Assembly (NCBI RefSeq): GCF_000146285.1
Contig: NZ_GL385912.1
Coordinates: forward strand, 544,076-608,075
Reading direction: 5' to 3'
Origin: Mobiluncus curtisii subsp. curtisii ATCC 35241
GTDB lineage: Bacteria; Actinomycetota; Actinomycetes; Actinomycetales; Actinomycetaceae
DNA: 64,000 nt
Shown: in pieces, positions 51,113-59,651 of the stretch
Position numbering within the stretch: position 1 is the first letter of the stretch
Layout: each line of letters begins with the position of its first letter
Notes under the pieces: model-generated
Told to the model about the DNA's origin: nothing
Databases searched by the model: none
Seen by the model: the letters and a program-made list of their open reading frames with translations, nothing else
Program-made: the position numbers and the translations under genes

Positions 51113-52918
51113 CTAGTCTTGCTGCCAGGACGCCCACAGTGAGGCATATTTACCGCCGGCTGCAACGAGTTCATCGTGCGTACCCAATTCCACGATTCTC
51201 CCGTCCATCATGACTGCCACTCGGTCGGCATCGTGGGCGGTATAAAGCCGGTGAGCGATAGCGATAACGCTGCGTCCTGCCAGCACTCGCGACAATGACT
51301 GTTCCAGAGAACGGGCTGCAGAGGGATCCATCAGGGAAGTTGCCTCGTCCAGCACCAAAGTGTGCGGGTTCAACAGCACGATTCGCGCCAGGGCGAGCTG
51401 CTGGACCTGCGCCGGATTCAGCTTGATTCCAGCGCCGCCGACTTCCGCATATAGCCCGATTTTTTCTGTTTCTGCCTGCGATTTTCCCTCCGGACCGGAT
51501 GATGCGCCAGGGGTCTGGCTCCCGGTACCGTCCAGTCCATTAACCCAGTCCACACCCACCGCGTCGAGTACCGCCCACAATTCCTCATCACTTGCGTCGG
51601 GTCGCGCCAAACGCAGGTTGGAGGCAATAGTTCCGGTAAACACGTGCTGTTCTTGCGTGACCAAAGCGACTTGCTGATGCAGCTCGCTTTCGGGCAAGTC
51701 CACCAGCCGCACTCCCCCAACTGTCACGGACCCGCTGGTGGGCGGGTGAATGCCCGCCAGCATACGCCCAAAAGTGGACTTGCCGGCACCCGATGGTCCG
51801 ACAATCGCCAACGTTTCACCACTGCGAAGTTCCAGAGACACTTCGTGCAGCACATTATGCCCCGCGTGGTAGGCGTAGCAAACGTCCCGGGCCACTATCG
51901 CGGGCGCACCGGCGGGCGCGTGGGCACTGGCTTCCCGGTCCGGCTCGACTTGTGCGACACCAAAAATTCGCGCCAGCGAAGTGTAAGCTTCCATGGAAAC
52001 GTCTACCCAAAAAGTCGCCTCCCACACCGGTCCACGCACCTGATAGGCATAGAGCGCAATCGTAGAAACAGCCCCGATAGTCAAGGCTCCGCTGGGCACC
52101 AACCAGGCTCCCAGCAACACGATAACTATCAAGGGAGACAGCGTGGCGCACACAATTCCCAAGAACAACCAGGAACGCATCCAGGTACTGTAGCGCTCCT
52201 GACGCCAGATTTCGCGAATAATGACATCGAGCTGAGCAATCCGTTTCCCCGACAGCCCCAGAGCGTCCACCGTATCCGCCTGATCCAGAGTTTCCGCTAC
52301 CGAACCGGACAAATCCGCCCAAGACCGGGCTGAGGACCGATAGGCGGGAACGGTCCGCGGTAAATACCACGCCATCAGCGGCCACACCCCTAGCGGTCCA
52401 ATGAGCAGCACAAATGCCAATTGCGGGGAGGCCAGAAACGCCGCCACAAACGTCACCACCAACGTTGTGGTAATCATCAGAATCGCCGCGATACCCTGGC
52501 GAATCATGAATTGCAGGCGTTCAACGTCTCGCGTGGTGCGCCCCACCAAGTCCCCGGTGCCCGCACTTTCCACGGTCGACAGCGGCAGGTGAATGACAGA
52601 ATCGACCAGACCATCACGCAGGTGGGCAAAAATCCGTTCGCCCATCACCCGGGCGCGATATTCTGCCAAGAACGAACATATCGCCGCCACCGCGACCACT
52701 ACCAGGGCAATCACTATTTGTTGACCGACCCAGTCGCGGCTGGCTGCCCCGGCTTGAATACGATCAATGACGCGCCCCAGCAGCCACGGGAGGGTCACTC
52801 CCGCCAGGGACGACAACAGCTGCAACCCCACAACTGACCCAATTGCGCCTCGATAGTCGTGAATCAGGTCTTTGACCCCACGCACCACCCGTTTTCTGCT
52901 GGCCAAGGGCAGTTTCAT
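51113..52918 (-). CDS. ABC exporter half-transporter with intact Walker motifs but degenerate signature
   Basis: 601 residues: six membrane helices (about 1-320) and a nucleotide-binding domain. Walker A GPSGAGKST lies at about 370-378, the Q-loop in LVTQEQHVF, Walker B TLVLDEATSLMD and H-loop IAIAHRLYTAHDAD are intact. The signature LSGGQ is replaced by LNPAQ (in KLNPAQVQQLALAR, near 498), with an unusual Gly/Ser/Pro-rich insert before it. Its start overlaps the stop of the neighbouring half-transporter (ATGA), so the two should form a heterodimer. The exported substrate is unknown. Confidence 0.93.
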   Translation of the reverse strand: MKLPLASRKRVVRGVKDLIHDYRGAIGSVVGLQLLSSLAGVTLPWLLGRVIDRIQAGAASRDWVGQQIVIALVVVAVAAICSFLAEYRARVMGERIFAHLRDGLVDSVIHLPLSTVESAGTGDLVGRTTRDVERLQFMIRQGIAAILMITTTLVVTFVAAFLASPQLAFVLLIGPLGVWPLMAWYLPRTVPAYRSSARSWADLSGSVAETLDQADTVDALGLSGKRIAQLDVIIREIWRQERYSTWMRSWLFLGIVCATLSPLIVIVLLGAWLVPSGALTIGAVSTIALYAYQVRGPVWEATFWVDVSMEAYTSLARIFGVAQVEPDREASAHAPAGAPAIVARDVCYAYHAGHNVLHEVSLELRSGETLAIVGPSGAGKSTFGRMLAGIHPPTSGSVTVGGVRLVDLPESELHQQVALVTQEQHVFTGTIASNLRLARPDASDEELWAVLDAVGVDWVNGLDGTGSQTPGASSGPEGKSQAETEKIGLYAEVGGAGIKLNPAQVQQLALARIVLLNPHTLVLDEATSLMDPSAARSLEQSLSRVLAGRSVIAIAHRLYTAHDADRVAVMMDGRIVELGTHDELVAAGGKYASLWASWQQD

Positions 52919-54915
52919 GACGGCTCACCACCACTGAGCACCGAGCGGTTGATGATAGCCAGGTACGAAGCGACTGCGGGATCCCCCGACCGAGCTCTTT
53001 CCCGAAGTTCCCGGTGCGAGCCACGGACGATTTCCCGCCCCGCCTCGTCGAGCACAATGACTTCATCACAATGCTCCAGCACCAGCACTGACACCGAGAC
53101 AATGACGGTGGTTTTCCCGTGCCGCGCTTGTGCCAAACGCTGAGCTACCCGCGATTCCGTGTGCGAATCGACCGCGGAAGTCGGCTCAATAGTCACCAGC
53201 ACCGCCGGATCTGCAGCTACCGCGCGAGCTAAGGCGACGCGTTGGCGCTGACCACCGGACAGAGTGCGCCCTTTTTCTGCCACTGCCCCGTCCAGACCGC
53301 CATTCACAGATTCCACCACATCATCGGCATCTGCCACGTGCAGCGCTGCCAACCATCGCGAATCGTGCTCATCATCTTCGGGAAAGATGAGCGAGTCCTC
53401 CTGCCGGGTCGCGTTTTCGATGACGTCACGCCATACGAGTTCGCGCACCCCCTTTTCGCGAGGTAACGGCGAGTTGACCCCTCGCACCTGATCCCGCAAA
53501 GTTCCGGCAAAAAGCTGCGGGTCGGTGTCTGACAGTAGGATGGCGCTGCGCACGAGGTCGAGGGGGAACGTCCTCACGTCGGTTCCATCAATCAAAAGGG
53601 TCGGTTGCGCGCTGTCTTCTTGGCGTGCCAACCGCCGGGCGGTCGCCGCGCTGGTGTCCGGATTGGCGCAGACCAGACCGGTAATCAAACCCGGCTTCAC
53701 CGTCACCTCACTAACTGTGTCGGTGAGATAGGACAAGGCAAAATCCTTTTCCTGCCACTGCGCTGGCGATGAGGCAGTTTGGGGCGATGTATCTCCGGAA
53801 ACATCCACCAAATCCTCGCTCACCAGGGAGGCAACGCCTTGAATTCGCGCGAGTTTGCGAACCCCGACCCAAGCTCTGGTGAATTCTTCCAACGACCGGG
53901 TGGCGACCACGATGGGGTTGCGCAAAAATTGTGAGAACCCAAAGAAAGCAACCAAACTGCCTACTGACAGTTCATTGTGAAAGTACAGAATCGCCCCGAT
54001 ACCCACCACCAGAGCGGTAAACAGCATGGGTATGACCGAACGCAACACGCCCAGCAACGCCGCGGGCAGGGCAACCCGAATCCCCGCGTCACGCACCCGA
54101 GACGATTGTTTCTGGTAGTGACTTCCGAACACGTCCTCACCGCCGATGCCGCGCAGGACCCGCAGCCCCGCCACCGCATCAGCCGAGATTTCCGTCAGTT
54201 TGCCCTGCTCATCGCGGTTCTCGGTTTGTCGCCGCTGCAGCGGTTTGCTCAACAGTCCTATCAGCAGCGATACGATGGGTAACCCGATTAGTACCATCCA
54301 AGCCAGCGGCGGTGAAGTGCGAAACATAATGACCAGAATCATGACGGCAGAGAGAATAGCGCCCACCATTTCGGGGAACCACAGTGCCGCACGGCCAATC
54401 CGGTCCACATCTGTCAGCATCGAAGTGACTACATCACCAGATTCCAGTTCCCGGTTCACAGCGCGCCCATCTAGGGCTAACTTTCGACCGGCTACCCGCG
54501 CGGGAGTCGCCACCGCGGTCATCTGGACTGCAATCTCCGTGAGCTGTCCCGCCATTTGGGTCACCGCCACGCCCAGGATAACCAGGCCGAGAACCACCAA
54601 CCGAGTCCAGATTTCCCTGGTCAAGCCATGTTCTAGACCTGTATCCAGCACCTTTCCCAGTGCCCAAGGCACACTGACCGACAGCGCATAGTTCAGTCCT
54701 GCCACCAGGGAACCAAGCGTGAGCACGCCGAACATAGAACCAACGAGTTTGCGGGCATAGCGGTGAGGATTAGCGGGGTAAACGTCAGGTTCGCCCTGGG
54801 GGCTGCCCAGCGGCCAGCGCCATGTGCGAGGGGTTCTCAGCAAGGGCGGCAACGCGACGTGTTCTTCGGCAGCATGACGCTGCAAAATAACGCGTGCGCG
54901 GGCAGTATCTTCCAT
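52915..54915 (-). CDS. ABC exporter half-transporter with degenerate Walker A/B but intact signature
   Basis: 666 residues with six membrane helices (about 55-330) and a nucleotide-binding domain. The Walker A position reads GLVCANPDTSAA (near 411), lacking the GKS/T. Walker B reads LVTIEPTSAVD with Ile in place of the Asp, and the H-loop His is Ser (VIVSVSVLVLEHCD). The signature LSGGQRQR (near 550) is perfect. So it cannot bind ATP normally itself but can complete the partner's site. It begins directly after the stop of the HTH-MNT-HEPN gene with no gap. Confidence 0.93.
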   Translation of the reverse strand: MEDTARARVILQRHAAEEHVALPPLLRTPRTWRWPLGSPQGEPDVYPANPHRYARKLVGSMFGVLTLGSLVAGLNYALSVSVPWALGKVLDTGLEHGLTREIWTRLVVLGLVILGVAVTQMAGQLTEIAVQMTAVATPARVAGRKLALDGRAVNRELESGDVVTSMLTDVDRIGRAALWFPEMVGAILSAVMILVIMFRTSPPLAWMVLIGLPIVSLLIGLLSKPLQRRQTENRDEQGKLTEISADAVAGLRVLRGIGGEDVFGSHYQKQSSRVRDAGIRVALPAALLGVLRSVIPMLFTALVVGIGAILYFHNELSVGSLVAFFGFSQFLRNPIVVATRSLEEFTRAWVGVRKLARIQGVASLVSEDLVDVSGDTSPQTASSPAQWQEKDFALSYLTDTVSEVTVKPGLITGLVCANPDTSAATARRLARQEDSAQPTLLIDGTDVRTFPLDLVRSAILLSDTDPQLFAGTLRDQVRGVNSPLPREKGVRELVWRDVIENATRQEDSLIFPEDDEHDSRWLAALHVADADDVVESVNGGLDGAVAEKGRTLSGGQRQRVALARAVAADPAVLVTIEPTSAVDSHTESRVAQRLAQARHGKTTVIVSVSVLVLEHCDEVIVLDEAGREIVRGSHRELRERARSGDPAVASYLAIINRSVLSGGEPS

Positions 54916-55896
54916 TTACGCAGTCTCTTCGGTGCCGCTGCCAGGGTACGTAATTGAGCTCAGGGCATCGAGAATTTTGGGGAAATCCTGGTGCAAGGTG
55001 GTCCAGGCAATGCTGGCGTCTAATTCGTCTACAGTTTGCATCAACCGGTATCGCAGCTCGCAGAGGATTGCCCACGGGATTTCCGGGTTGACTTCCTTTA
55101 CATCGGAATGAATTTTTGCTGCCGATTCCACCAGTACCGAGATAGAGTGATACGCCGCGAAACGTGACTGCACCCCCGCCGGGGTCTTGGCAAAATACGC
55201 CTTTGGGTCACCGGTGGCGATGCCCATGCCTACGTCCAAAGTCCGAGACATGTCATCCACACGCCACCGGGCAGCCGAGACATCGTAAGGGAAGAAAGAC
55301 TTGTGGAATCCCCACTTTTGAAAATAGGGATATTCTTCAATCTCACGAGGCGAAAAAACATTCCCGGACCGGTATAAATCCACCAGTAAAGGCTCGAACT
55401 TAGTTTTTTCATCAAGCCGCGTAACTTCGCGAGGAACTCGGTCGACCTTGGCATTGCCCAATCCGGTATCAATAGACAGGTAGACCGTGGTGCTCAGCTC
55501 GTTCTCGAGTTCATTTTGCAAGCCAACCAAATCCAGCATTCCTAGGGGATTCGTGGTGCTAACCAAGAAATCAATCGGGGTAAACGCATCATCTTGACCG
55601 GTAGAGACAGGTCCAAACAAGAAAATCTCATCATAGCCGTGCCGCGAAAAAATCCCGCGCACCACATGGCGTTTCATGCCCATCAGGGTGTGTGCCGGGA
55701 CGCTTACCGCTTTAGCCAAAGCGGTTTCCTCGGCTTCAGAAATACGCCGCTTATGGTTTTCAAAAGCGCTGATATGGGATTGTGGAACTCCGGACATGCC
55801 TGCCAGCTCCGCCTGAGTCAAGCCCAGCACGTTGCGGCGCAGCCGCAAAAAAGCGCCGGGTCGGAAATCGCGTAGCGCCATAAATTTCTGTTCCAT
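54916..55896 (-). CDS. Single-chain HTH-MNT-HEPN protein with degenerate catalytic motifs
   Basis: 326 residues in three parts. An Xre-type HTH is at about 16-70 (RNVLGLTQAELAGMSGVPQSHISAFENHKRRIS). An MNT nucleotidyltransferase-like domain follows (80-152: LFGPVSTGQDDAFTPIDFLV, then LGMLDLVGLQNELENEL). A HepT-like HEPN domain ends the protein (208-313: WRVDDMSRTL...VNPEIPWAILCELRYRLMQTVDELDASIAWTTLHQDFPKILDAL). In active pairs MNT has GSxxRGxxxxxSDxD and HEPN has RNxxxHxY. Here the MNT reads GPVSTG...TPID (Ser and first Asp lost), and the HEPN reads R282-Y-R-L-M-Q287 (His lost, Tyr lost). It abuts the ABC exporter genes and is probably a regulator. The domain reading is by eye. Confidence 0.8.
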   Translation of the reverse strand: MEQKFMALRDFRPGAFLRLRRNVLGLTQAELAGMSGVPQSHISAFENHKRRISEAEETALAKAVSVPAHTLMGMKRHVVRGIFSRHGYDEIFLFGPVSTGQDDAFTPIDFLVSTTNPLGMLDLVGLQNELENELSTTVYLSIDTGLGNAKVDRVPREVTRLDEKTKFEPLLVDLYRSGNVFSPREIEEYPYFQKWGFHKSFFPYDVSAARWRVDDMSRTLDVGMGIATGDPKAYFAKTPAGVQSRFAAYHSISVLVESAAKIHSDVKEVNPEIPWAILCELRYRLMQTVDELDASIAWTTLHQDFPKILDALSSITYPGSGTEETA

Positions 55897-55902
55897 GCGA
55901 TA

Positions 55903-55923
55903 ATTATACTCCTGAGGTGTATA
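55903..55923 (-). promoter_or_regulatory. Leaderless promoter and probable operator of the HTH-MNT-HEPN gene
   Basis: A perfect TATAAT ends six bases before the ATG, the spacing expected if transcription begins at the start codon. Overlapping it is the quasi-palindrome TATACACC-TCA-GGAGTATA (7 of 8 pairs, minus-strand reading), a likely site for the protein's own HTH. Confidence 0.65.
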
Positions 55924-55977
55924 TAAGGGAATAGTTTTGTTAGCGGAAAAACACCGCTAACGTGTGCCCTCGAGAAA

Positions 55978-59030: not shown

Positions 59031-59651
59031 GTGAACGCTTCCCTGATTCTTTCCACTCTCGCCCAAGCATTGGTGCTCTTTGCGGTCACTAACATCGACC
59101 ACTTGATACTGCTGACTTTATGGTTTGTCCACGGTCATCAGCGCCCCGGCACAACGTTGCGTATCTGCGCAGGTCAATACCTCGGTTTCAGCGCTATTTT
59201 GGCAGCCACCGTGATCCTGAATCTGATATCCGGTTTCGTCATTCCCGAAGCTCAGTTGCATCTGTTGGGTCTGATACCGCTGATTCTGGGAGTTAAAGCT
59301 GGCATTGGGGAAATTTTGGAACGCCGGGAGTCGAACGATTCCAGGGACGCACAGTCAGCCGAATCAAGGCTGGAAGGCAAACCTGTCAGTGTTGGCGCGG
59401 TCGCCCTGGTCACCATCGCGAACGGAGGCGACGAAATCGGTGTTTATCTGCCGGTTTTTGCCTTGTCGGCCTGGTGGCAAGTCGCTATGTTCTGCGCGGT
59501 GTTTCTGGTGCTGGCTGGTGCGCTGTTGGCTCTGGCGTGGTTCATTACCGGACGTTTAGGGCTCGCGGAGGTTCTGGAACGATTCGAGGCGGTGCTCTTT
59601 CCGAGTGTGCTTATCCTGCTCGGGGTGCTCATCCTCGCCGGATGGCTCTAG
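59031..59651 (+). CDS. Cadmium-resistance transporter family protein (CadD-like)
   Basis: 206 residues from a GTG. About six membrane helices: FAVTNIDHLILLTLWFV, QYLGFSAILAATVILNLISGF, HLLGLIPLILGVKAGI, VGAVALVTIANGGDEIGVYLPVF and two more. The DEIGVYLPVF and ANGGDN-type motif match the CadD family. CadD proteins export cadmium; other members have unknown substrates. It is divergent from the lysine-transport operon. Confidence 0.85.
   Translation: MNASLILSTLAQALVLFAVTNIDHLILLTLWFVHGHQRPGTTLRICAGQYLGFSAILAATVILNLISGFVIPEAQLHLLGLIPLILGVKAGIGEILERRESNDSRDAQSAESRLEGKPVSVGAVALVTIANGGDEIGVYLPVFALSAWWQVAMFCAVFLVLAGALLALAWFITGRLGLAEVLERFEAVLFPSVLILLGVLILAGWL

Follow-up and report, generated by a model that had tools for sequence, protein, structure and literature searches.

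A fused Xre-MNT-HEPN protein with two degenerate active sites as a candidate autoregulator ahead of an ABC exporter pair in Mobiluncus

Introduction

HepT/MntA toxin-antitoxin systems are encoded by two genes and recognized by two signature motifs, GSX10DXD in the nucleotidyltransferase (MNT) antitoxin MntA and RX4HXY in the HEPN toxin HepT; replacement of GS by AT or of DxD by ExE in MntA abolishes AMP transfer (PMC7641770). MNT and HEPN domains also occur in one chain, and in the passages that Anantharaman and colleagues devote to such proteins, HEPN fused to MNT is described as usually losing its RNase residues, a change that they term domestication; in the examples given there, the nucleotidyltransferase stays active and no helix-turn-helix (HTH) is described (PMC3710099). 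So far, the conversion of toxin-antitoxin modules into ordinary genes of the cell has been argued mostly in general terms.

Here, we describe a gene of Mobiluncus curtisii subsp. curtisii ATCC 35241, found in a 64,000-nucleotide stretch of contig NZ_GL385912.1 (the window, to which all coordinates without a contig label refer), in which an Xre HTH, an MNT domain, and a HEPN domain form a single protein. Like HepT/MntA, it has the same two domains with the antitoxin part first, a HepT-like match (PF01934) above cut-off, and an MntA fold; unlike HepT/MntA, it is one chain (326 amino acids here, 331 in a sister species) instead of two genes, lacks both signature motifs, and carries the HTH at its N terminus (PMC7641770). 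With the MNT-HEPN fusion enzymes that the same account of domestication treats (kanamycin nucleotidyltransferase, AadA, and the GlnE/GlnD type), it shares the single chain, the loss of HEPN RNase residues, and domestication, but those enzymes keep an active nucleotidyltransferase, whereas the Mobiluncus protein appears to have lost it and has a DNA-binding domain (PMC3710099). That an inactive HEPN domain can serve in regulation has a precedent in MtlR, the repressor of mannitol operons; in that account, however, MtlR belongs to a HEPN-only family and reportedly does not bind its operator (PMC3710099). Relative to what that source relates of MNT-HEPN fusions, loss of HEPN catalysis is already known, and what is new is an MNT that is apparently dead as well, together with a retained HTH and operator-like site (PMC3710099). 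Within a single genus and its relatives, the stages of such a conversion can be followed, from intact split pairs to a fused protein in which both sites are apparently dead but which has kept an operator-like site and come under renewed purifying selection.

Results

The fused gene occupies positions 54,916 to 55,896 on the minus strand, with its start and stop confirmed. Residues 14 to 68 (55,693 to 55,857, minus strand) form an Xre-type HTH, matched above the Pfam cut-off by both HTH_31 (PF13560, 1.6e-7) and HTH_3 (PF01381, 6.8e-7). The MntA-like domain covers residues 76 to 165 approximately (55,402 to 55,671, minus strand); it falls below the Pfam threshold for NTP_transf_2 (PF01909) and is identified by the PADLOC MNT-type model PDC-S09 (4e-10), by structural matches, and by a tree that places it with split Xre-MNT genes, one of which (L046) matches NTP_transf_2 at 2.2e-10. 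A weak sequence match to PDB entry 1wot (0.005) lies in the same part. The HepT-like HEPN domain, residues 191 to 315 approximately (54,952 to 55,326, minus strand), includes the YFxxxGFxKS N-terminal extension of its subfamily and is supported by alignments and by PF01934 (residues 244 to 314, 9.4e-6, above the Pfam cut-off).

An AlphaFold2 model built from a 20-sequence alignment had a mean pLDDT of 82, with low confidence in the linker at residues 168 to 181, and a pTM of 0.49, so that the arrangement of the domains is not fixed by the prediction. Searching the PDB with this model, Foldseek returned the MNT antitoxins 8xeo, 8xeh, and 7bxo and Xre-type control-protein HTHs; the best E values were only 0.003 to 0.1, and the match probability was 1.00 for the MNT antitoxins and most HTH matches. 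Pfam, PADLOC, AlphaFold, and Foldseek thus agree with an earlier note on this DNA, made from the letters alone, that had read an Xre HTH, an MntA-like MNT, and a HepT-like HEPN in one polypeptide, and the structure prediction that it proposed as a check assigns MNT and HEPN folds to the middle and last parts.

That note had also claimed that both catalytic motifs are lost, and the alignments bear out its reading of the letters. In the MNT motif (55,570 to 55,614, minus strand), the serine is replaced by P96 and the first aspartate by P107, leaving G95 P96 ... P107 I108 D109 with only the second aspartate, D109, of the DxD pair retained. The HEPN motif RNx3HxY (55,030 to 55,053, minus strand) reads R282 Y283 R L M Q287 T V289, in which N, H, and Y have become Y283, Q287, and V289 and R282 is kept. 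The orthologue in a sister species of Mobiluncus (genome G003) has lost the same motifs: its MNT motif is likewise GPx10PxD, with the same residues, and its HEPN strip reads R Q R L V Q G A. Because the motif residues are replaced, there is a strong case that both enzyme sites of the fused protein are dead; since D109 is kept, residual nucleotide binding is possible.

To place the fusion among its relatives, we drew on samples of 213 genomes from the family, 396 from the order, 395 from the class, and 396 from the phylum, which partly overlap and amount to about 1,400 in all. The fused architecture was found again in the sister species, with both motifs lost, and nowhere else in the family sample or among the order-level matches listed; the class and phylum samples, for which strong matches only were reported, gave none either, although a very divergent fusion could escape these searches. 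The family search suggested in the earlier note thus yielded no fused homologue with intact sites, and the open-access text searched held no Xre-MNT-HEPN fusion. The relatives in the sampled actinobacterial genomes are separate Xre-MNT and HEPN genes, usually overlapping and in many pairs by 4 nt in different frames. Closest in sequence are split pairs of Actinomycetaceae (L046, L070, L071, and L072), which have the same HTH-MNT unit and the same HEPN subfamily with its N-terminal extension but differ in being separate, mostly overlapping genes with intact motifs (nearly so in L070). Among aligned split homologues, the Xre-MNT proteins retain GS and DxD, and the HEPN motif is intact or nearly so, reading SNKVIHLY in L003 and L070 and RTLAVHQD in L004; pairs from M. 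porci and G120 are among those whose motifs are intact. The L004 protein, encoded at 1411 to 2103 of L004 in genome G010, lacks the Asn and the Tyr (RTLAVHQDD) and is possibly another weakened toxin.

Trees of each half group the fused proteins with the same split pairs, those of genomes G120 and G027 (support, 0.99), on a long stem branch of about 1.1 to 1.2 substitutions per site. Since both halves cluster with the same split subfamily, we infer that it was a cognate antitoxin-toxin pair that fused. Given that so many split pairs overlap by 4 nt in different frames, one indel close to the junction would be enough.

The sister-species orthologue (L023:8041-9036) is 76% identical to the M. curtisii protein, and its surroundings match as well: the gene order is unchanged, amino-acid ABC genes lying upstream and the two exporter genes downstream. 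A sequencing or assembly frameshift was considered as the cause of the fusion and ruled out, because the same fused frame is present in both species at saturated synonymous divergence. Between the two sequences, the gene has a dN/dS of 0.083 (dN, 0.144; dS, about 1.75), with domain values of 0.063 for the HTH, 0.073 for the MNT, and about 0.05 for HEPN residues 191 to 280; dS being saturated, these ratios are approximate. The HTH region (residues 1 to 75) is 85% identical, and the only internal indel is a single codon. Together, these comparisons indicate that the fused frame is under purifying selection, which argues against a decaying remnant.

The two dead sites have fared differently. Residues surrounding the dead MNT site are the best kept of their domain (23/25 identical, against 49/65 in the rest of the domain) and, with the HTH, of the whole protein, whereas the former RNase-motif strip is the least conserved part (7/20 identical in residues 281 to 300). 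This difference points to continued use, at least structural, of the MNT pocket region but not of the RNase site. The contrast between a frozen pocket and a drifting HEPN motif gives a testable prediction about which part of the old module is still used.

Xre antitoxins commonly bind their own promoters. The fused gene has an Xre HTH and, as in autoregulatory repressors of this type, an inverted repeat over its own promoter: the 19-bp quasi-palindrome TATACACCTCAGGAGTATA (55,905 to 55,923, minus strand), a probable autogenous operator, overlaps, as the earlier note had seen, the -10 box TATAAT (55,903 to 55,908, minus strand; conserved in the sister species) and ends 8 nt before the ATG. Judging from the spacing of the -10 box, transcription would begin at the ATG or right beside it, and the transcript is therefore probably leaderless; no -35 element for this promoter passed the promoter scan. 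Taken alone, the palindrome is unremarkable (p = 0.12 within 48 nt), and the sister-species repeat, which keeps the outer arms TATAC/GTATA around a diverged center, is also weak by itself (5/9 pairs; P = 0.25). The register of the M. curtisii repeat, however, is common to the split homologues. The antitoxin genes of these pairs are preceded by GATACC-N8-GGTATC (G120), GATACC-N7-GGTATC (G027), TATATC-N7-GATATA (G002, Mobiluncus porci), and GATAACA-N4-TGTTATC (G047), in each case with the right arm within a TATCAT/TATAAT box and 7 to 8 nt from the start, as in the fused gene; the close relatives L046, L070, and L071 are among the pairs with an operator-like repeat over the -10 box at this distance. 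At this shared register, the M. curtisii repeat has a P of about 3e-4, an indicative value because the register was picked after the sequences had been seen, and the automatic repeat search chose another repeat for M. porci and several other relatives.

When up to 2 mismatches are allowed, the pattern TATACNCCTNAGGNGTATA of the palindrome is found at a single site in the M. curtisii genome, which argues for local control. The looser TATAC-N9-GTATA occurs at 3 sites in M. curtisii and 2 in the sister species. A wider regulon was considered and rejected: the extra sites lie inside a coding region (L152), in an intergenic region (L154), or before an apparent ilvD (L151), and none is common to both species. 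Farther upstream, in the interval that separates the fused gene from the amino-acid ABC operon, lies a perfect 8-bp inverted repeat, GTTAGCGG-TGTTTTT-CCGCTAAC (55,939 to 55,961), which is absent from the sister species and may be the terminator of that operon.

Downstream, the stop codon TAA of the fused gene, ending at 54,916, directly adjoins the ATG of the first ABC exporter gene at 54,915, confirming the gapless junction that had been read from the sequence; the spacing is also zero in the sister species, where the exporter gene starts with GTG. Exporter half 1 (52,915 to 54,915, minus strand; PF00664, 2.4e-28; PF00005, 8.3e-9) and half 2 (51,113 to 52,918, minus strand; PF00664, 1.7e-32; PF00005, 3.1e-21) overlap by 4 nt, and the zero spacing together with this overlap supports a single transcript. 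No exporter adjoins the split homologues of G120 and G027, and the Actinomycetaceae pairs show no exporter link where checked; the association thus appears to be lineage specific, seen in two genomes only. By eye, no conserved regulator could be recognized before the exporter in the upstream open reading frames of six homologues from other genera. The exporter halves themselves differ: half 1 has a degenerate Walker A in which the lysine motif is not recognizable (GLVCANPDTSAATA instead) and keeps LSGGQ; in half 2, Walker A is present and the signature is degenerate (LNPAQ). The exporter is predicted to be a strongly asymmetric heterodimer, with the asymmetry kept in the sister species.

Discussion

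We consider it probable that the fused gene is a domesticated, catalytically dead toxin-antitoxin module that acts as an autoregulatory repressor at the head of a three-gene unit with the ABC exporter pair. The earlier note had suggested a domesticated regulator, and this gains support from the sister orthologue with the same losses, purifying selection, intact split pairs among the relatives, and the operator-like repeats that these pairs have at the corresponding position. In this scheme, the genes for an Xre-MntA antitoxin and its cognate HepT toxin would have merged into one frame, both enzymatic sites would have been lost, and the fused protein would have settled under new constraint. Its HTH would bind the inverted repeat over the -10 box and block its own promoter, so that neither the fused gene nor the two exporter genes behind it would be transcribed. 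Oligomerization would be determined by the dead MNT-HEPN part, to which a ligand may bind and so lift the repression. We place moderate confidence in operator binding and in exporter control by the fused protein, and weak confidence in ligand sensing by its MNT-HEPN part.

A bolder version, in which a one-component sensor has been made wholly from a toxin-antitoxin pair, seems to us rather doubtful. The conserved dead pocket of the pseudo-enzymatic MNT-HEPN would bind a nucleotide or antibiotic-like ligand, the Xre domain would be released from the operator, and the ABC exporter would be turned on.

It is unlikely that the protein is a functional autorepressor of itself only, next to an exporter that has its own promoter. 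Conservation of the operator register in the family, with the exporter association confined to the two-genome Mobiluncus lineage, would fit such incidental adjacency, but in neither species is there any gap between the two genes, so that a promoter for the exporter would have to lie within coding sequence. The scan found no promoter-like match near the exporter start, although the same scan also misses the fused gene's own promoter.

A domain search of the M. curtisii genome found no other HepT-like or NTP_transf_2 gene, which rules out service as an antitoxin for another HEPN gene of its own. The related proposal that the dead fusion stands alone as an immunity protein, neutralizing incoming HEPN toxins by complex formation, has little to recommend it. 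Related intact pairs do exist in the genus (M. porci has two unlinked Xre-MNT/HEPN pairs with intact motifs and a third HEPN/MNT match), and MNT and HEPN domains are described as interacting tightly (PMC3710099). Against this, the fusion already has a HEPN partner in cis, the nearest Mobiluncus toxins are only about 30% identical, and both the operator register and the position before the exporter would be left unexplained.

Hardly to be expected is an active enzyme with altered nucleotidyltransferase activity, akin to antibiotic adenylyltransferases of the same layout: Foldseek also finds the two-domain MNT-HEPN enzymes AadA, AAD(9), and ANT, D109 is kept, and no other part of the MNT domain is as well conserved as the former active-site region, but prolines stand in place of both the GS serine and the first aspartate, and the GS-to-AT or DxD-to-ExE changes that abolish transfer in MntA argue against it (PMC7641770). 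Just as implausible is a pair fused by frameshift and drifting without function: two lost active sites, the long stem branch, and a relaxed C terminus (56% identity and a pN/pS of 0.33 over the last 46 residues) would suit it, but the frame has stayed open in two species, with no frameshift or stop despite saturated synonymous sites, and the low dN/dS, about 0.05 in HEPN residues 191 to 280, speaks for constraint.

The dS of 1.75 in the fused gene, against mostly 0.3 to 0.8 in flanking genes, is two- to fivefold that of most neighbors; a divergent allele may have replaced the gene, or it may be a mutational outlier. At 59,031 to 59,651, a membrane-protein gene has a pS of 0.061 between the two species, compared with 0.25 to 0.49 in other nearby genes, which suggests that it was recently exchanged between them.
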